Below, in pieces: positions 12,359-20,666 of a stretch of DNA of 64,000 nucleotides. The notes below the pieces were generated by a model, which did no database searches, was not told the origin of the DNA, and saw only the letters and a program-made list of their open reading frames with translations. The first letter of the stretch is position 1. Every line of letters begins with the position of its first letter. Position numbers and translations under genes: made by a program. Where the stretch lies: contig CAJQOH010000022.1 in the NCBI GenBank assembly GCA_905479915.1, positions 1 through 64,000 on the forward strand. The letters run 5' to 3'. The DNA comes from an uncultured Flavobacteriales bacterium. GTDB lineage: Bacteria > Bacteroidota > Bacteroidia > Flavobacteriales_E > Vicingaceae.

Positions 12359-14140
12359 TTAGAAAACCATTCTTTTTTTAAGTTGAGGTCCTTTACCTTT
12401 TTTGTGTTTGTTTGGTTTTTCGTAAAGATGTCTAGTAGGGTTTGGTCGTTTAAATTTGATTCCAGATTTTCCTTTGATTTCGGCAGGTGGTTCTGGATCT
12501 TTTTTTGGTGTTATGGTTGATTTTTTTATTTCTTCTTTTTCTTGAACGGCAATTTCAACTTTTATTTCTTTTTTCTTTTCTTGAAGTGCTACTTGATTTT
12601 CAGCTCTTTCCTTTGCTGCTTTTTTGGCTAATTCTGCCGCTCTTTCTTTGGCTTTTCGTTCTTCTTCAGCTTTCTTTTGAGCAGCTTCTTTTTCGGCATT
12701 GGCTTTCTTTTCGGCATTAGCTCTTTCTTTGGTTTCTTGTTGAGCCAATAATTTTGCTTTCTTAGCTTCTTTAGCACTAGCTATAGCTGCAAGATTTTCT
12801 TCTTTTGCTTTCTCCTCTTCTGCTTTTTTTTCTGCTGCAACTCTTTTTGCTGCATTTTTAGCTATAGCTGCTTCTTTTGCTAAAGCTTGTTTTTCTGCTT
12901 TTTCTTCTAATTGTTTTTTCTCTTCAGCAGCTTTAGTTAGCGCTTCTTTTTCCGCTTTCTTTTTTTCAATTTTTTCTTTTTGAGCTTCTGCTAAGGCTTT
13001 TTCCTTTTCTTCCAATTGTTTTTTCTCTTCAGCAGCTTTAGCTAAAGCAGCTTTTTCTGCCAATGCTTTTTCTTTGGCCAGTGCTTCAGCTTTTTCTTTG
13101 GCTAGTTTTTCTTCTTCAGCTTTTTTAGCTGCAATCTCAGCTAATTTATTTGCTTCTTCTTCTGCTAAAGCTTTTTCTTTGGCTAGTGCTTCAGCTTTTT
13201 CTTTGGCAATTCGCTCTTCTTCCGCTTTTTTGGCTGCAGCTTCGGCTTCTTTTTTGGCTTTTTCTTCTTCCAATGCTTTTTCTTTGGCCAATGCTTCAGC
13301 TTTTTCTTTGGCCAGTCGTTCTTCTTCAGCTTTTTGGGCTGCAGCTTCGGCTTCTTTTTTAGCTGCTTCTTCAGCTTCTGCACGCGCTTTTTCTTCTGCA
13401 CGTGCTTTTTCTTCTTCAGCCTTTTTAGCTATTTCGGTTTCAATTAGTTTGAGTTTATCTTTTGGTTCAGGTCTATCATTAAATAAATCAATTGCTTTTT
13501 TATAGTTGTCCGAAGCATTTTCCCAATCCTCTTTTGCAAATGCTTTGTCTGCTTCTTTCATAGCAGTAGTGTAATCTTTTTCTTTCTGTTTAGCCTCTTC
13601 TTCCATTCTTGCAGCTTCTTCAGCACAATCATCTAACATTTCATTTAGAGCAATTAGTTTATCCATAGAATAATCCATGTCCCAATCCATTACATTCTTT
13701 TTAGGAAAATAAATTGCTCGTCCAATAGGAGCGTTTAACATTTCTGATTTAATACATTCATTCGGTTTAAACATGGTTATTTCTGCTCCCATGTCAGGTA
13801 CCTTTTGTCTTTTTAAGTCAGGTACCCCATTGGTATTCATGGTTATTGTTTTGCTGGTTAAACCTGGTTTAGAAAAAGTGATGGTGTAAATTTTATCGTA
13901 TTCTAATACCATCTTATATTGTCCTTTTGCATCTGAAGAACCACTAATTGGTTTCCCTCCTCCGGTAGCAGTTATTTTAACTCCAGAAATTGATCTTCCC
14001 GAATAGTAATCAGAAACAACTCCATCTAAATAGATATTGTCTAAGTCCCATTTTTCTTCTCTATCAGCACCATCGAGCTGAGCAAAACCAATAAGATTGG
14101 TAAAGATTAAAAACAATAATATTTGGATTTTTTTAACCAT
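12359..14140 (-). CDS. Secreted carboxypeptidase-like-domain protein with long Lys/Ala/Glu helix (TolA-like)
   Basis: Envelope protein of unknown function. A signal peptide (residues 1-20, ending GFAQ) precedes a carboxypeptidase-regulatory Ig-like domain (about 35-110) and a short TPR-like segment (about 190-235, with EDWENASDNYKKAIDLF). A stretch of about 300 residues (237-545), almost only K, A, E and L, then reads as a single long alpha helix or coiled coil. A proline-containing, very basic tail ends in RMVF. The helix resembles the periplasm-spanning domain of TolA by composition only; no TonB-C domain is seen. Three 35-residue repeats lie inside it. Its ATG shares its first base with the smpB stop (TAATG), indicating translational coupling. 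Confidence 0.75.
   Translation of the reverse strand: MVKKIQILLFLIFTNLIGFAQLDGADREEKWDLDNIYLDGVVSDYYSGRSISGVKITATGGGKPISGSSDAKGQYKMVLEYDKIYTITFSKPGLTSKTITMNTNGVPDLKRQKVPDMGAEITMFKPNECIKSEMLNAPIGRAIYFPKKNVMDWDMDYSMDKLIALNEMLDDCAEEAARMEEEAKQKEKDYTTAMKEADKAFAKEDWENASDNYKKAIDLFNDRPEPKDKLKLIETEIAKKAEEEKARAEEKARAEAEEAAKKEAEAAAQKAEEERLAKEKAEALAKEKALEEEKAKKEAEAAAKKAEEERIAKEKAEALAKEKALAEEEANKLAEIAAKKAEEEKLAKEKAEALAKEKALAEKAALAKAAEEKKQLEEKEKALAEAQKEKIEKKKAEKEALTKAAEEKKQLEEKAEKQALAKEAAIAKNAAKRVAAEKKAEEEKAKEENLAAIASAKEAKKAKLLAQQETKERANAEKKANAEKEAAQKKAEEERKAKERAAELAKKAAKERAENQVALQEKKKEIKVEIAVQEKEEIKKSTITPKKDPEPPAEIKGKSGIKFKRPNPTRHLYEKPNKHKKGKGPQLKKRMVF
13022..13336 (-). repeat. Three tandem 105-bp repeats within the KAE helix
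   Basis: Three head-to-tail units of 105 bp (35 codons). The motif gcttcagctttttctttgg recurs at 13083, 13188 and 13293, exactly 105 bp apart. Each encodes a variant of KAEEERxAKEKAEALAKEKAL. The repeats are diverged, the third most clearly, so this is old internal duplication within the gene and not an intergenic array. Confidence 0.85.
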
Positions 14141-14589
14141 TAATCTTTCATTGCTCTATCCATTCTTCTTTTATCATCTTTAGCTTTTAAATCATGACGT
14201 TTATCATGTAATTTTTTACCTTTTGCTAAAGCAATATCTAGTTTGGCATAGCCTTTTCCATTGATGAATAAACTAATGGGTACTATAGTTAAACCAACAT
14301 CTTTTTTCTTTTTAACGAGCTTGTCTATCTCATTACGGTTTAAGAGTAATTTCCTGTCTCTTCGTGGTTCATGATTGTTGTATGAACCCTGTTCATATTC
14401 GGAGATGTACATGTTTTTGATAAAAACTTCCCCGTTGTTTACGTAACAGTAACCTTCAACAATACTTGCTTTTCCTGCTCTAATCGATTTTATTTCAGTT
14501 CCATAAAGTTGAAGGCCTGCTGTGAATTTCTCTAAAAATTCATATTCGAATTTGGCTTTTTTATTTTTTATGTTGATTTGATTACTCAC
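14140..14589 (-). CDS. smpB: SsrA-binding protein SmpB
   Basis: Trans-translation factor that binds tmRNA and brings it to stalled ribosomes. The 149-aa length is standard. Family motifs include [28 protein letters not shown] near the N-terminus, [18 protein letters not shown] in the middle and the basic tail [26 protein letters not shown], which enters the empty mRNA channel. The tmRNA gene is not in this window. The stop codon overlaps the start of the downstream KAE-rich gene by one base, so the two are probably translated from one message. Confidence 0.97.
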
Positions 14590-14641
14590 GAGGCGAAATT
14601 AAGGATTAACCAAAAAATAAACACTATAAATCAAGTAGCAT

Positions 14642-15469
14642 TTAACCTAGACCAACATCAAGCATCATCATAATAATAAATCCGCCTATAAAGCCAAGAA
14701 CTGCAATGTCGGTATACTTATCTCTTTGGGTTTCAGGTATTACTTCTTCTACTACTACAAAAATCATTGCTCCAGCAGCAAAAGCTAAAGCATAAGGCAA
14801 TATTGGCTGAAATGTCATAACAGCCCATGCTCCTAAACAGGCCGCAACTGGCTCAACAATTGCAGAAAGTTGTCCGTAGTTAAAACTTTTCCAACGGGAC
14901 AGACCTTGTCGTCTTAAAGGCATAGAAACAGCCATGCCTTCAGGGAAATTTTGAATTCCAATTCCAATAGCTAAGGCAATTGCTCCGCCAATGCTTGCAC
15001 CTTCAAAACCAACTGCTGCTCCACCAAATAAAACTCCAATAGCTAATCCTTCGGGTATGTTATGAAGAGTAATGGCAAGCACTAACAATGTTGAGCGGTG
15101 CCAATCTGTTTTTACACCTTCGGCTTCACTTTGTTTAAAATTGATGTGTAGATGGGGTAGTACTTTATCTAGACTATATAGCATAAGTGCTCCACCTAAG
15201 AAACCTATTGCAGCAGGCATAACTTTTATGAAACCTTCTCCATCCGACATTTCAATTGCTGGACTTAACAATGACCAGAAACTTGCCGCAACCATAACAC
15301 CTCCTGTAAAACCTAGCATTCCATCAAAGATTGCCCTGTTAATAGATTTGAAAAAGAAAACAAATGCTGCTCCTAGAGCAGTTAATGCCCAAGTAAATAA
15401 TGAGGCATATAATGCCTGGTGTATTGGACTTTCAATACTTTGGATAAGGGCTTTTAATTCTTCTATCAT
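14642..15469 (-). CDS. ZIP family divalent metal transporter
   Basis: Inner-membrane metal permease (275 aa, about eight helices). The two ZIP signature segments are present: HNIPEG at about residue 136 in helix 4 and NFPEG at about 172 in helix 5, which form the binuclear metal site in ZupT-like proteins. ZIP members import Zn, Mn, Fe or Co. The adjacent MntR/DtxR-type regulator makes Mn(II) or Fe(II) the favoured substrate (inference). Its ATG overlaps the regulator's stop by four bases (ATGA), so the two genes form a coupled operon. Confidence 0.92.
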   Translation of the reverse strand: MIEELKALIQSIESPIHQALYASLFTWALTALGAAFVFFFKSINRAIFDGMLGFTGGVMVAASFWSLLSPAIEMSDGEGFIKVMPAAIGFLGGALMLYSLDKVLPHLHINFKQSEAEGVKTDWHRSTLLVLAITLHNIPEGLAIGVLFGGAAVGFEGASIGGAIALAIGIGIQNFPEGMAVSMPLRRQGLSRWKSFNYGQLSAIVEPVAACLGAWAVMTFQPILPYALAFAAGAMIFVVVEEVIPETQRDKYTDIAVLGFIGGFIIMMMLDVGLG

Positions 15470-16125
15470 GATCTTTTTATTATCAAATTTTTACTTGCTT
15501 GATGAGAAATGTTTACGGTGTTTTCTTTGTTGATTGTAACACTCATTGATCGGTCAAAATCAACCACTTCTTTTACTTTTATTTCAGTTCCTAATACTAA
15601 GTTGATCGATTCTAAGTAGTTTAAATAACTTTTTGAATGCTCCTTAACACCAACAACAATACCTTGTTCATTGAGTTTTAAGTCGGCTAGAGTTATGTCT
15701 TGATGGCGGTGAATATTTCCATCTTTATCTGGTATAGGATCTCCATGAGGATCGTATTTTGGGTATTCTAAAAAGGCATCCAATTGATTGGTTAGTTTTT
15801 TGGAGTTTATGTGTTCCAAATCTTCCGCTAAATCATGCACTTCATCCCATTTAAAGTTAAGCTTTTCTACTAAGAAAACTTCCCATAAACGATGATTTCT
15901 AATGATAGATACAGCAATATCTTTACCTTTTTTAGTAAGACTTACTCCTTGGTATTTTTTGTAGTTTACCAGTTTTTTTTCTGATAATTTTTTTATCATA
16001 TCTGTAACCGAAGAAGCCTTTGTTTCTAGAGACTCTGCAATGGCATTTGTAGAAACACCATCATTGGTCTTTTGACTTAATTTAAAAATTGCTTTTAAAT
16101 AATTTTCTTCTGTAAAGGAGTTCAT
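15466..16125 (-). CDS. DtxR/MntR family metal-dependent transcriptional regulator
   Basis: Metal-sensing repressor of 219 aa. A winged helix (about 1-65, with SVTDMIKKLSEKKLVNYKKYQGVSLT) leads into a dimerisation and metal-binding domain (about 66-145, with HRLWEVFLVEKL, HDLAEDLEH and the PHGDPIP loop). A C-terminal FeoA/SH3-like domain covers about 150-219. When loaded with Mn(II) or Fe(II), such proteins repress metal-import genes. It is the first gene of a two-gene unit with the ZIP transporter and diverges from a TonB receptor. A strong palindrome at 16177-16202 lies between them. A TATCTTCG element (16143-16150, minus strand) could be its -7 box. Confidence 0.92.
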   Translation of the reverse strand: MNSFTEENYLKAIFKLSQKTNDGVSTNAIAESLETKASSVTDMIKKLSEKKLVNYKKYQGVSLTKKGKDIAVSIIRNHRLWEVFLVEKLNFKWDEVHDLAEDLEHINSKKLTNQLDAFLEYPKYDPHGDPIPDKDGNIHRHQDITLADLKLNEQGIVVGVKEHSKSYLNYLESINLVLGTEIKVKEVVDFDRSMSVTINKENTVNISHQASKNLIIKRS

Positions 16126-16176
16126 TTTAGCATAAAATTTAAGCGAAGATAAAAAATATAAACTACTTGGGTAAAT

Positions 16177-16202
16177 ATATTTTTAGATTAGTCTAAAAAT
16201 AT
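16177..16202. promoter_or_regulatory. Putative DtxR/MntR operator palindrome
   Basis: Perfect 11-bp inverted repeat, ATATTTTTAGA (16177-16187) and its complement (16192-16202), around the spacer TTAG. The core TTTAGnnnnnCTAAA style resembles DtxR-family boxes. It lies midway between the divergent regulator and TonB receptor starts, where it could block both promoters. Confidence 0.7.
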
Positions 16203-16206
16203 TTAT

Positions 16207-16214
16207 TAGATTTG
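16207..16214 (+). promoter_or_regulatory. -7 promoter element of the TonB receptor gene
   Basis: TAGATTTG matches the Bacteroidota -7 consensus TAnnTTTG and ends 17 bp before the receptor ATG. The expected -33 position falls inside the palindrome; no good TTG is seen there, as expected for a regulated promoter. Confidence 0.5.
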
Positions 16215-16231
16215 TCGAAAATTTAGGTTAA

Positions 16232-18490
16232 ATGAGAAGTTTTTTGTTGCTGATTATGTTGTTTCCTCTATTTTGCTTTTCGCAAAATGGAACGATAAGC
16301 GGTGTAATTAAAGATGGTGCAGAGCCAATTCCATTTGCTAATGTAGGTTTGGTAGGTACTTCTTTTGGTGTTGCTACAGATATAGATGGTAAGTATTCTT
16401 TAAAGGAAATCCCTGCAGGAAAATATACTGTTCAAATTTCTAGTGTGGGTTATAAAAATGTAAAGAAATCCATACTTGTAGTAGCGGAGAAGCCAACTTT
16501 TTTTAATCATGTAATGGAAAAGACCACAGCTCAATTGGATGAGTTTGTAGTTACAGGTGAGTTGAAAGAAATTTCTATTATGGAATCCGCTGTTCCAATT
16601 AAAGTGTATAAACCCGCTTATTTTAAAAAGAATCCTACACCAGCTTTGTTTGAAGCATTACAGATTGTAAATGGAGTTCGCCCACAAATTAATTGTAGTG
16701 TTTGCAATACTGGTGATATTCATATTAACGGAATGGAGGGACCTTATACTATGATTACTATTGATGGGATGCCTATTGTTGGTGGTTTATCTACGGTTTA
16801 TGGATTAAACGGTATTCCCAATAGCATGATTGGACAAATGGAAGTTGTTAAAGGTCCAGCATCTACACTTTTTGGTTCTGAAGCGGTTGGTGGATTGATC
16901 AATGTTATTACAAAATCTCCTGAACAAACACCAAGACTCAGTGTGGATGTTTTTGGGACAACCTGGGGAGAAATTAATACTGATGTGGGAGTGATGTTTA
17001 AACCTTCAGAAAAAATTAGTTCATCATTAGGTGTTAGCTATTTTAACTATTCAAACCCGATTGATAATAATGGAGATAATTTTACAGATCTTACTTTACA
17101 AGATAGAGTGTCTGTATTTAATAAGTGGAGTTTTAAAAGGAAAAAGGATAGAGATTTCTCTATGGCTTTTAGATATATTTATGAAGATAGGTGGGGTGGA
17201 GAAATGCAGTGGACACCGGAGTATAGAGGCGGTGATAGTATTTATGGGGAGTCTATTTATACAAGTAGGTATGAGGTTATAGGTAAATATCAATTGCCTT
17301 TTAAAGAGAAGTTGATGTTGAGTTTTTCTTATTCTAATCACGATCAAAATTCGGTTTATGGGAATACTCCCTATATAGCGAATCAAAAAATTGCTTTTAG
17401 TCAATTGCATTGGAATAAAAAACTAGATGTTCATGATGTTTTGGTTGGAGCTGCATTTCGTTATAACTATTATGATGATAACACTGTGGCAACACAAACG
17501 GCTGATACTTTAAATGTTCAGAATAATCCTGATGTAGCATATTTACCAGGTTTGTTTGTTCAGGATGTAATTATACTGCATGAAAAACATAAGATGTTAT
17601 TAGGTGCTAGATATGATTATGATAATAGGCATGGTAGTATTATGACCCCAAGGTTTAATTATAAATGGTCTCCTAATGATAAGAATACGCTTCGTTTAAG
17701 CACGGGTACTGGATATAGAGTTGTTAATTTGTTTACAGAAGATCATGCTGCAACTACAGGTTCTAGAGAGGTTGTTATTAATGGTACATTAAATCCAGAG
17801 ACATCTTATAATGCCAATTTAAATTGGCAACGATTTATCAATACCGAATTTGGATTTATCAATTTTGATGCAAGTGTTTTTTATACCTACTTTACCAATA
17901 AAATATCTCCTGATTATGAAACAAATCCTCAGCAAATTATTTATGAAAACTTAGATGGATATGCAGTTTCTCAAGGAGTGAGCTTTGATTTGAGTATTAA
18001 TTTTTCTGCTCCTTTAAATATAAAAATAGGTGGAACATTTATGGATGTTTATGAGATGAATAATGATGAGAATGGAGATTTGCAAAGGGAAAAACAATTG
18101 TTAACAGAAAGTATTTCGGGAACATATGGCGTGACTTATAAGTTTAATAAATCAAACATTAAAATTGATTATAGTGGTAATGTGTATGGTCCGATGAAAT
18201 TGCCTCTTGTAGAGAATGATACTAGGCCAGCATATTCTGATTGGTATAGTATTCAGAATATTCAAATAACCAAAACGTTTAAAAAGCATTGGGAGGTTTA
18301 CGGTGGAGTTAAAAATTTACTGAACTATACACCACCTGTTTATTCTATTTTACGACCATTCGATCCGTTTGATAAAAATGTGGATGATCCAGTGAGGAAC
18401 CCTCAAGGATTTACTTTTGACCCTTCATATGTGTATGCTGCTAATCAGGGGATTAGGGGTTTTTTTGGGGTTAGATATACGTTTAAATAA
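16232..18490 (+). CDS. TonB-dependent outer-membrane receptor, probably metal-regulated
   Basis: Outer-membrane active transporter (752 aa). It has a signal peptide (about 1-18), a carboxypeptidase-like N-terminal domain (about 20-95), a TonB-box-like segment (about 103-110, DEFVVTGE), a plug (about 120-235, ending GPASTLFGSEAVGGLINVITK) and a 22-strand-type barrel ending in an aromatic residue (GVRYTFK). The plug holds a Cys pair (C155 and C158, NCSVCNTGDIHINGM). The gene diverges from a DtxR/MntR-type regulator across a shared palindrome, so it probably imports a metal or metal chelate under metal control. That function is inferred from context; the cargo is unknown. It converges with the DUF3817 gene with no bases between the stop codons. 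Confidence 0.92.
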   Translation: MRSFLLLIMLFPLFCFSQNGTISGVIKDGAEPIPFANVGLVGTSFGVATDIDGKYSLKEIPAGKYTVQISSVGYKNVKKSILVVAEKPTFFNHVMEKTTAQLDEFVVTGELKEISIMESAVPIKVYKPAYFKKNPTPALFEALQIVNGVRPQINCSVCNTGDIHINGMEGPYTMITIDGMPIVGGLSTVYGLNGIPNSMIGQMEVVKGPASTLFGSEAVGGLINVITKSPEQTPRLSVDVFGTTWGEINTDVGVMFKPSEKISSSLGVSYFNYSNPIDNNGDNFTDLTLQDRVSVFNKWSFKRKKDRDFSMAFRYIYEDRWGGEMQWTPEYRGGDSIYGESIYTSRYEVIGKYQLPFKEKLMLSFSYSNHDQNSVYGNTPYIANQKIAFSQLHWNKKLDVHDVLVGAAFRYNYYDDNTVATQTADTLNVQNNPDVAYLPGLFVQDVIILHEKHKMLLGARYDYDNRHGSIMTPRFNYKWSPNDKNTLRLSTGTGYRVVNLFTEDHAATTGSREVVINGTLNPETSYNANLNWQRFINTEFGFINFDASVFYTYFTNKISPDYETNPQQIIYENLDGYAVSQGVSFDLSINFSAPLNIKIGGTFMDVYEMNNDENGDLQREKQLLTESISGTYGVTYKFNKSNIKIDYSGNVYGPMKLPLVENDTRPAYSDWYSIQNIQITKTFKKHWEVYGGVKNLLNYTPPVYSILRPFDPFDKNVDDPVRNPQGFTFDPSYVYAANQGIRGFFGVRYTFK

Positions 18491-18778
18491 TTACGCTTCT
18501 CTAAACCATTTTTTATCGGCATAAAAAGTGCCAAAAGGAATAAAAGATGCAATAAAAGCTCCAAGAGTTTTAAAAAAACTCCATTTAAATTGAAGGTGTA
18601 CAATTAAGAGGTTTATTGTGTAAAGAACGAATAAAACTCCATGAGCCATTCCTACTATTTTAACCATTTCTGGTTTGTCATAATAGTATTTTAATGGCAT
18701 GGCAAGTCCAAGTAAAACTAAAAAAGATATACCTTCTAAAAGGGCAAGAAGTCTTAGTATGCTTAAGGATTTTTTCAT
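18491..18778 (-). CDS. DUF3817 domain small membrane protein
   Basis: A 95-residue integral membrane protein with three predicted spans. It matches the DUF3817 pattern: LRLLALLEGISFLVLLGLAMPLKY at the N-terminus, then MVKIVGMAHGVLFVLY and ASFIPFGTFYADKKW near the C-terminus. The biochemical role of the family is unknown. It lies 14 bp downstream of the O-methyltransferase gene in the same direction. Confidence 0.88.
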   Translation of the reverse strand: MKKSLSILRLLALLEGISFLVLLGLAMPLKYYYDKPEMVKIVGMAHGVLFVLYTINLLIVHLQFKWSFFKTLGAFIASFIPFGTFYADKKWFREA

Positions 18779-18792
18779 ATGGATAAATGTAG

Positions 18793-19434
18793 TTATTTTT
18801 TTCTTACGATCATTAATCCATCTCTAATTGGGAACAATACATTTTGGACTCTGTCATCATTATTAACTTTTTCTGAGTAGTCTATCAGAGCAATTGTATC
18901 GGGATCAAGCGTTTCTTTTGCTTCAGTTACTTTTCCGCTCCAGAGTACATTGTCTGCTATTATATATCCGCCAGAATTAACTTGATCAAAAACTAGGTCA
19001 TAATAATTAGAGTAGTTGATCTTATCTGCATCTATAAAAACGAGGTCTATAGGTTCTTTTAAGGTTGGAATAATTTCTACTGCGTTTCCAATATGATTAA
19101 TGATAGTGTCTTTTAAGTTAGATTTTTCGATATAGTTGTTTACCATAGATTCGAGTTCTTCATTAATATCTATGGTGTGAATTTTTCCGCCTTTCTGTAG
19201 GCCTTCGGCCATGCATATTGCAGAATATCCCGTGTATGTTCCTATTTCTAAAACAGTTTTAGGATTAATCATATGGGTAAGCATGCTTAAAACTCTTCCT
19301 TGTAAATGTCCTGAGAGCATTCTCGGAATTAGTACTTTTTCCCAAGTTTCATGGTTGAGATTTGCTAAGATTTCAGGTTCTTTTTCGGTGTTTTTTAGAA
19401 CAAAGTTTTCTATTTCTTCAGGTAAAAAATCCAT
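18793..19434 (-). CDS. O-methyltransferase (class I, family 3)
   Basis: SAM-dependent methyltransferase of the caffeoyl-CoA/catechol O-methyltransferase type (213 aa). SAM-binding motif I is VLEIGTYTGYSAICMAE (about residue 60-76). An acidic residue after strand 2 (HTIDINEE) and the metal-binding segment VFIDADKINYSNYYD follow, then ADNVLWSGKV. Family members methylate catechol-like hydroxyls with Mg2+; the substrate here is unknown. It sits 5 bp downstream of the M16 peptidase gene and is probably cotranscribed with it. Confidence 0.9.
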   Translation of the reverse strand: MDFLPEEIENFVLKNTEKEPEILANLNHETWEKVLIPRMLSGHLQGRVLSMLTHMINPKTVLEIGTYTGYSAICMAEGLQKGGKIHTIDINEELESMVNNYIEKSNLKDTIINHIGNAVEIIPTLKEPIDLVFIDADKINYSNYYDLVFDQVNSGGYIIADNVLWSGKVTEAKETLDPDTIALIDYSEKVNNDDRVQNVLFPIRDGLMIVRKK

Positions 19435-19439
19435 AATTT

Positions 19440-20666
19440 TTAATTTGGTGAGAATGTTAAACTGCTTAATTGTTTAGTGTCAAAAACTTCATTTGCTATT
19501 CCTAAAATTTCTTCTTGAGTAATCATCATAATTTTAGCGTGTGTTTCTTGAAGAGAGTCAATTTTGTTGTAGAGTAACAAGCTTTTTCCCATGCCTAACA
19601 TGATGTTGCAATTGTTTTCTTCTGATAATGTTATTTGGCCAATTATTTGTTGTTTGGCTTTTTTGAGTTGAGCAGAAGTCATCTTTTTTTCTCGTAAAAC
19701 TTTAAGTTCTTTATGAACTAATTTTATACTTTTTTCAATGTGTTTTTGATCTGTACCTAAGTAAATGTAAAATAGCCCTGTATCTGAGAAAGCCGTATAT
19801 GAGGATTCGATATTGTAGGTAAACCCATATTTCTCTCTAATCCCCATATTTAATCTACTATTCATTGCCGGACCACCTAAAATATTGTTTAACAGTATAA
19901 AGCCATTTTTGTGTTTATGATGCGCTCCGTAAGCAATATTTCCAGTAATGTAATGGGTTTGATAAATGTCTTTTTTAATTTCTTTTTGGATGGTTTTGTA
20001 GTTGGTGAATGGGGCTCTTTTCTTGTTGGTTGTTTTTTCAGGGATTTCGTTCAGGTGTTTTTTACAGAGTTTTTCAATTTTTTTAAATGGAAAATCTCCT
20101 ACAACACTAAATATAATTTCGTTAGTGAGGTAATCGTTTTTTATAAATTCTAATATCTGTTTTCTATTGATTTTCTTAACACTTTCAGTCGTGCCCAATA
20201 TGTTCATTCCTAATGGATGATCTTTAAAGATAAGTTCCTCAAAATCATCATAAATTTGTTCGTAAGGGCTGTCTTGATAGGAGTTGATCTCGTCAATAAT
20301 TACATCCTTTTCTTTTTTAAGTTCATTTTCTGGATAGGTGGAGTTGAAAAGAATGTCGGTTAATAACTCCAATGCTCTTTCTAGATGTTGTTTTGTAAAG
20401 GAAGCATAAATGCTAGTTTGCTCTTTGGTAGTAAATGCGTTTATTTCTCCACCAACATTGTCTATGCGATTTAATATGTGATGAGATTTTCGTTTAGAAG
20501 TTCCTTTGAAAATGGCATGCTCTATAAAGTGAGTGATTCCATTTTCTATAGTTTTTTCATCTCTAGACCCTGTTTTAACGATAAAACCGCAATGTGCAAC
20601 TTCACTTTTTACAGGTTTGTGAATAATTCTAATTCCATTTTTAAGCTCTAAAAAATTATACTCCAT
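19440..20666 (-). CDS. M16 family zinc metallopeptidase
   Basis: Insulinase-like peptidase (408 aa). The inverted zinc motif HxxEH is present at residues 46-50 (HFIEH), and the third zinc ligand is probably E126 in DVIIDEINSYQDSPYEQ. The C-terminal half carries the substrate-binding GGPAMNSRLNMGIREKYGFTYN region. So it is a catalytically complete single-chain processing-peptidase-type enzyme. No signal peptide is seen, suggesting a cytoplasmic location. It leads a minus-strand run with the O-methyltransferase and DUF3817 genes. Confidence 0.92.
   Translation of the reverse strand: MEYNFLELKNGIRIIHKPVKSEVAHCGFIVKTGSRDEKTIENGITHFIEHAIFKGTSKRKSHHILNRIDNVGGEINAFTTKEQTSIYASFTKQHLERALELLTDILFNSTYPENELKKEKDVIIDEINSYQDSPYEQIYDDFEELIFKDHPLGMNILGTTESVKKINRKQILEFIKNDYLTNEIIFSVVGDFPFKKIEKLCKKHLNEIPEKTTNKKRAPFTNYKTIQKEIKKDIYQTHYITGNIAYGAHHKHKNGFILLNNILGGPAMNSRLNMGIREKYGFTYNIESSYTAFSDTGLFYIYLGTDQKHIEKSIKLVHKELKVLREKKMTSAQLKKAKQQIIGQITLSEENNCNIMLGMGKSLLLYNKIDSLQETHAKIMMITQEEILGIANEVFDTKQLSSLTFSPN

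Follow-up and report, generated by a model that had tools for sequence, protein, structure and literature searches.

Passage of Mn(II) through the outer membrane of Gram-negative bacteria is known in few cases. In the MntR module of Stenotrophomonas maltophilia, as set out in the available part of its description, mntR and mntH are accompanied by a TonB-dependent receptor (TBDR) with a Cys-Gln-Asn-Cys (CQNC) plug and by a periplasmic thioredoxin-fold protein, and the synteny of this module is conserved across Lysobacterales, Sphingomonadales, and Opitutales (PMC13217887, 2026). The same source mentions MnoT/TseM of Burkholderia, in which TonB-dependent outer-membrane Mn uptake works with a secreted Mn-binding protein; its text does not mention Bacteroidota (the stem "bacteroid" is absent). 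Among the regulators, PgMntR of Porphyromonas gingivalis is a Bacteroidota DtxR-family Mn regulator with C-terminal FeoA-type domains that binds the promoter of its own Mn transporter, according to the part of the report available (PMC4805248), in the text of which "palindrome" and "TonB receptor" have zero occurrences each. DR2539 of Deinococcus radiodurans is a DtxR/MntR hybrid with Lys at position 11 that binds an inverted repeat at mntH (PMC3327659), and the TroR operator is described as an 18-bp dyad (PMC2628430). An MntR-controlled TBDR family in Bacteroidota was not found described in the open-licence PMC literature, which is weak evidence of absence.

The locus reported here lies in a stretch of 64,000 nucleotides (the window) from an uncultured Flavobacteriales bacterium of the Vicingaceae, whose genome assembly of 3.57 Mb is 97.5% complete. 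The features discussed below are as follows.

14642 to 15469, minus strand: ZIP metal transporter (PF02535), 275 aa, identified by Pfam; overlaps the regulator gene by 4 bp.
15466 to 16125, minus strand: DtxR/MntR-type metalloregulator with a C-terminal FeoA domain, 219 aa, identified by Pfam.
16144 to 16151, minus strand: probable -7 element of the regulator promoter, TATCTTCG, 30 bases from the 16-bp core, with one mismatch to TANNTTTG, which we take to be the Bacteroidota-type -7 consensus.
16177 to 16202, no strand: predicted operator, the perfect inverted repeat ATATTTTTAGA-TTAG-TCTAAAAATAT, with 11-bp arms and a 4-bp spacer; kept in relatives.
16182 to 16197, no strand: 16-bp core TTTAGATTAGTCTAAA (family form TTTAGAYNNRTCTAAA); conserved in relatives.
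16207 to 16214, plus strand: -7 element of the receptor promoter, TAGATTTG, nine bases past the 16-bp core.
16232 to 18490, plus strand: TBDR with CarbopepD_reg_2, plug, and barrel domains, 752 aa, identified by Pfam.
16694 to 16705, plus strand: plug motif Cys-Ser-Val-Cys (CSVC) of the receptor, residues 155-158.

The gap between the divergent genes (16126-16231, 106 bp) runs exactly from the regulator ATG (16125, minus strand) to the receptor ATG (16232). Both domains that define the regulator score above their Pfam cut-offs (Fe_dep_repress, PF01325, 57.9 bits; Fe_dep_repr_C, PF02742, 102.8 bits) and are followed by a FeoA/SH3-like domain of the DtxR, DR2539, and SloR type (PF04023, 41.3 bits); the PF01325 match is the single one in the whole genome. 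The ZIP protein matches PF02535 with 86.2 bits (cut-off 35.1), and the receptor matches the plug and TonB barrel models with 63 bits (PF07715) and 95.5 bits (PF00593). These matches establish the divergent arrangement of a regulator-ZIP pair opposite a TonB receptor that an earlier note, made from the letters alone, had described. A DUF3817 gene neighbors the receptor, and 3' of the ZIP gene is a presumably SmpB-like gene (14140-14589) whose cluster c1 (44 members) lies near the regulator in many relatives as a conserved neighbor.

The regulator family and the operator type are of known kinds, and the palindrome at 16177-16202 is very probably the operator of the neighboring DtxR/MntR-type repressor. 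The locus resembles the Stenotrophomonas module, as far as the latter is described in the available text, in that a TBDR encoded close to mntR has an MntR box at its promoter and a Cys-x-x-Cys (CxxC) plug, a likeness of receptors that rests on the published motif; it differs in having ZIP in place of MntH, CSVC in place of CQNC, a FeoA domain on the regulator, and no thioredoxin gene beside the CSVC-subtype receptor (PMC13217887). Its predicted TonB-dependent outer-membrane Mn uptake would resemble that of MnoT/TseM, by description, but the latter has a secreted Mn-binding partner. PgMntR differs from the window's regulator in its partner (FB2), in its ligands Cys108 and Asp19, where Glu and Asn are found here, and in having two FeoA domains (PMC4805248). 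For DR2539, a dual Mn/Fe response was shown, and no outer-membrane receptor is seen in its regulon in the available part of the report (PMC3327659).

The ligand-like residues of the regulator bear on the metal that it would sense. In all 81 regulators compared, H78, E101, E104, and H105 are present, position 8 is Asn, and position 11 is Lys. Set against the ligands of B. subtilis MntR (D8, E11, H77, E99, E102, and H103; PMC4805248), N8 and K11 depart from the Mn-selective set while the other four residues are kept. At E101, E104, and H105 the regulator agrees with the MntR type and lacks the Cys found in iron-type DtxR. All matches to the NCBIfam MntR equivalog models fall below cut-off (155.8 of 350, 63.8 of 138, and 47.6 of 153 bits). 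Among PDB sequences, the regulator is best matched by 5zr4, which we take to be DR2539. The inner-membrane partner encoded 3' of the regulator changes among relatives and is ZIP, NRAMP-Usp, or an ABC set composed of a ZnuA-type binding protein, an ATPase, and an ABC-3 permease to which a DtxR dimerization domain is fused. Because the partner may be of the ZIP, NRAMP, or ABC type and the ligand residues are Mn-like, Mn(II) is the likeliest main signal, an assignment that we regard as probable from the sequences compared. As a separate observation, the fused permease (L047:7429-8739, with a similar frame in L058) adjoins a DtxR regulator and would be a transporter carrying the metal-binding, dimerization domain with which the repressor senses.

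The strongest competing interpretation keeps the same operator and repressor but has Fe(II) as the main metal, or Mn and Fe equally, with the receptor importing an iron complex. The invariant Lys11 agrees with it, since DR2539, which also has Lys at this position, responds to both Mn(II) and Fe(II) (PMC3327659). Several Christiangramia-type loci encode FeoB nearby, on the other strand and a few hundred bases away from the ZIP region (L097:7170-9269 and similar loci; cluster c9, 11 members), and the AlphaFold model of the receptor (mean pLDDT 80.1, pTM 0.78), folded like Cir, BtuB, and PfeA, is similar to siderophore receptors and BtuB. Against iron stand Glu101, where iron-type DtxR has Cys102, and the P. 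gingivalis ortholog, whose DNA binding is tighter with Mn and less stable with Fe (both from the available part of PMC4805248), as do three Fur-family genes in the window's genome that are available for iron and zinc. A dual or iron signal is a minority possibility, which we consider rather unlikely.

A zinc system, in which the ZIP protein would import zinc and the receptor would be a ZnuD-like zinc receptor, is improbable. The ZIP protein does match the ZupT model, with 132.5 bits, below the cut-off of 252, and a ZIP protein of Riemerella, also of the Flavobacteriales, imports zinc (PMC11960050, available part), but the controlling regulator is of the DtxR type, NRAMP takes the place of ZIP in many relatives, and the match of the receptor to ZnuD is weak (E 0.0007).

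The perfect 11-bp inverted repeat around TTAG in the gap between regulator and receptor was found at 16177-16202, as the earlier note had claimed. DtxR and IdeR share the operator TTAGGTTAGCCTAACCTAA, and comparison of the core TTAGaTTAGtCTAA with the DtxR form TTAGgTTAGcCTAA gives agreement at 12 of 14 positions; relative to the DtxR, IdeR, and TroR operators, the arms here are TTTAGA, and the center is not fixed as TTAG across relatives. The gap has a G+C content of 18.9%, and dinucleotide shuffling of it produced a perfect 11-bp inverted repeat with a spacer of at most 10 in 13 of 2000 cases (~0.7%). The whole 64-kb window contains six such repeats, the other five, with arms of at least 11 bp, being at 1404, 29685, 45342, 46535, and 58122. 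The shuffles make the bare palindrome just moderately unusual, and conviction comes from its conservation in relatives.

Conservation beside the regulator was assessed in 80 named relatives, the nearest of which are Vicingaceae and other Flavobacteriales MAGs, by scoring the 16-bp core for at least 11 of 12 matches to TTTAGA/TCTAAA within 120 bp upstream. The core TTTAGAYNNRTCTAAA was present upstream of 69 of the 80 regulators, compared with 0 of 80 coding controls and 11 of 1600 shuffles; the loci are interrelated, so that these counts are not independent events. Eleven of the 80 regulators had no site at this threshold. The 69 sites give the consensus TTTAGAYTNRTCTAAA, flanked by A+T-rich sequence, and the central TTAG of the window's site is not fixed among them. 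Variant G-boxes (GTTAGA...TCTAAC; n = 16) and T-boxes (n = 50) were split perfectly by a recognition-helix rule (P37 or P38 together with T39 or N41) that was chosen after the data were seen; on the tree, this co-variation amounts to two changes and two independent pairs (p 0.5), and is therefore only suggestive that operator and recognition helix co-vary. In L160, L174, L216, L222, L226, L244, L277, and L285, the variant box GTTAGA....TCTAAC lies next to regulators that are more distant and differ in their recognition helix.

Conservation beside the receptor was assessed in 46 genomes from the order and 396 from the class. In the class, 173 of the 396 genomes had a receptor match at E ≤ 1e-60, some of these to other TBDRs, and the two best candidates per genome were scored. 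The regions upstream of 163 receptors were scored for the core (11 or more of 12 matches, with T or G as the outer base) after 10 rows had been dropped whose match started after residue 60 or that had fewer than 150 bases upstream (L156 (second match), L177, L197, L220, L235, L243, L249, L250, L289, and L290). The core was found upstream of 109 of 138 TBDRs of the window's family in other genomes (31% identity or more) compared with 0 of 25 other TBDRs (~25-30% identity) and 0 of 163 shuffles; 29 of the 138 family receptors had no site at this threshold. These loci, too, are related, so that the counts do not stand for independent events. Broken down by the position of the regulator, the site was present at 66 of 79 family receptors adjoining it, 3 of 3 at a greater distance from it, and 40 of 56 whose fetched flank of 1.5-3 kb contains no regulator. 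In Pedobacter cryotolerans (L126), 4.8 kb separate the regulator from the start of the receptor, which has a perfect site of its own at -47. Since the site follows the receptor even where the regulator is not nearby, it belongs to the receptor promoter itself. Two further observations concern individual loci: tandem CxxC receptors with 67-68% identity to the window's (L193 and L156, G043:C9) have a perfect box at the upstream one only, and regulators without the metal-ligand residues (K, R, H, E, Q, and N at the six positions; L271 and L281) adjoin CxxC receptors without a clear box.

It is this conservation, with the regulator and with the receptor separately, that carries the operator reading. 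It also argues against a palindrome that serves another DNA-binding protein or forms an RNA hairpin, a terminator, or part of a riboswitch. A perfect inverted repeat between two genes is what such elements might look like, but the palindrome lies upstream of both -7 elements, so that neither transcript is expected to contain it, and positions 13000-20000 gave no Rfam match to point to an RNA element. As for another protein, the ZIP gene occurs in 26 of the 46 family genomes and adjoins the regulator in 24 of these, by position; the two genomes in which it stands apart (G018 and G045) have no regulator, no CxxC receptor, and no box at the ZIP gene. Together these points leave the other-protein and RNA readings very improbable. 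A chance palindrome, for which the A+T-rich gap and the 13 equally good shuffles speak, is contradicted by conservation at the same promoter position across the class and is scarcely credible.

The placement of the operator relative to the promoters suggests what it would control. The -7 element at 16207-16214, nine bases past the core, places the receptor's -33 element at the center of the palindrome, which makes the overlap with the receptor -33 region proposed in the earlier note a reasonable one. On the receptor side, 70 of the 109 boxed receptors have a -7 element 3-10 bases beyond the core, compared with 3 of 109 for any in an upstream control; at this spacing the box covers the -33 region of the receptor promoter. 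A candidate second operator at 16203-16221, a partial direct copy, proved to be the -7 element and is not conserved as a box. On the regulator side, boxed loci form two classes. In the far class, the core is at least 58 bases from the ATG, with an exact TANNTTTG 25-32 bases away in 29 of 33; in the near class, a -7 element lies 7-8 bases from the core in 21 of 36. All 24 boxed loci with a divergent family TBDR and all 4 with a divergent di-heme oxidoreductase gene are of the far class, and all 30 with a divergent gene that we take from its sequence to be Lrp-like are of the near class. Thus, where a receptor shares the gap, the box is placed to block the receptor, and where none does, it is placed to block the regulator operon.

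For the window, it is a safe prediction that the site would block the receptor promoter. Control of the regulator-ZIP promoter is likely but would probably be weaker, because the site is further upstream for that promoter. ZIP control and self-control are argued from the 4-bp overlap of the genes and from those loci that have no divergent receptor, in which the site is beside the regulator -7 element. The proposal that one sensor serves both the outer- and inner-membrane steps is supported in the part concerning the two genes that the site follows, the regulator (69/80) and the receptor (40/56 with no regulator in the flank); that the sensor also controls itself is the weaker half, the site being better placed for the receptor than for the regulator-ZIP promoter. 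Taken as a whole, metal-responsive control of the receptor and of the divergent regulator-ZIP pair by a DtxR/MntR-type repressor operator is very likely.

The mechanism that we infer, in its DNA binding, repression, metal, TonB-driven metal transport, and cysteine role alike, would run as follows. With enough cytoplasmic Mn(II) (and possibly Fe(II)), a metal-loaded repressor dimer would bind the palindrome and cover the receptor -33 region, which would stop receptor transcription; the bound dimer would also damp the divergent regulator-ZIP promoter, though probably to a lesser degree. Under metal scarcity, the repressor would release the palindrome, and the metal or a metal complex would be imported through the outer membrane by the receptor and through the inner membrane by the ZIP protein.

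Every intact family TBDR examined has Cys-x-x-Cys in its plug. Alignment of the 29 full-length receptors of cluster c5, each at most 5 kb from a regulator, places the motif at the same plug column in 29 of 29, as CSVC, CGVC, CNVC, CNIC, CQTC, or CQNC. Both cysteines are among 50 columns invariant in 30 sequences, together with other potential ligands (D278, D282, E318, D416, D462, and H505). TBDRs with 25-30% identity have DAVS, NVIT, and similar sequences instead, and in one locus (L057) the box separates the regulator from a receptor-like protein that does not belong to the family and has no CxxC. The window's genome encodes 16 plug proteins, among which the window's receptor alone combines a CxxC plug with the site (12/12); the other 15 reach at most 10/12. 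Because CxxC marks the whole receptor family, what the receptor count links to the box is the family and not the cysteine pair itself. A point absent from the earlier note is that a class-wide receptor family is marked by the box in combination with the CxxC plug.

Among the regulator-linked relatives, the motif is CQNC in 11 of 29 and CQTC in 3 of 29, and a thioredoxin-like CxxC gene adjoins the receptor in 13 of these 14 loci (Christiangramia-type and three Pedobacter). It is here that the evidence from Bacteroidota and from Stenotrophomonas meets, the combination of CQNC with an adjoining thioredoxin-like CxxC gene being that of the Stenotrophomonas module in the available description (PMC13217887). 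We put forward, as a tentative idea that falls somewhat short of probable, that throughout Bacteroidia one MntR-type regulator controls CxxC-plug receptors that would be dedicated TonB-driven importers of Mn (or of a Mn/Fe complex). The cysteines would act as a metal ligand or as a redox-sensitive gate, serviced in some lineages by a thioredoxin-like reductase, and ZIP, NRAMP, and ABC transporters would be able to replace one another at the inner membrane, with box, sensor, and receptor retained. A single operator sequence that can be read from genomes alone marks a receptor family throughout a class; box and CxxC plug would be a simple handle by which to tell manganese receptors from the other TonB receptors, which are many in each Bacteroidota genome, and two point changes would make the role of the plug cysteines testable.

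The regulon looks small, judged by where sites lie. Searching the whole genome, a check proposed in the earlier note, yielded two exact matches to TTTAGRYNNRYCTAAA, one inside a reading frame and the window's own, the sole exact core placed at a promoter. With at most one mismatch there were 36 sites, and among the 15 inspected all but the window's were inside reading frames, so that these 15 revealed no further regulon member. A looser pattern, TTTAGANNNNTCTAAA with one mismatch, gave 110 sites compared with 57 for a control and was set aside as too loose for regulon definition. In the 46 family genomes, TTTAGAYNNRTCTAAA occurs at 41 sites in 34 genomes, compared with 8 for the reversed pattern. 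By position, 30 of the 41 are at a regulator, a CxxC receptor, or, in one case, a di-heme oxidoreductase gene heading a regulator cluster; 9 are inside or at the end of reading frames, and the others precede a receptor-like gene (L371) and a nickel superoxide dismutase operon (L370).

The last of these is found in one relative, G028 (contig C33; L370:2208, L375:2208), in which a perfect box lies 196 bp upstream of a gene for a small His-containing protein that is followed by a nickel superoxide dismutase gene (PF09055), a hint that a superoxide dismutase swap may be under Mn control in this relative. As a general regulon member, nickel superoxide dismutase was rejected: the gene occurs in 1 of the 46 family genomes, and none of 4 matches among the 396 class genomes had a flank box of 11 or more. 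The di-heme oxidoreductase gene (DHOR, PF06537) of L373 is preceded by a perfect box at 39 bp. Together with two uncharacterized genes, a DHOR gene replaces the receptor, opposite or before the regulator, in L051, L064, L067, L068, and L069 and in L052, L053, and L373.
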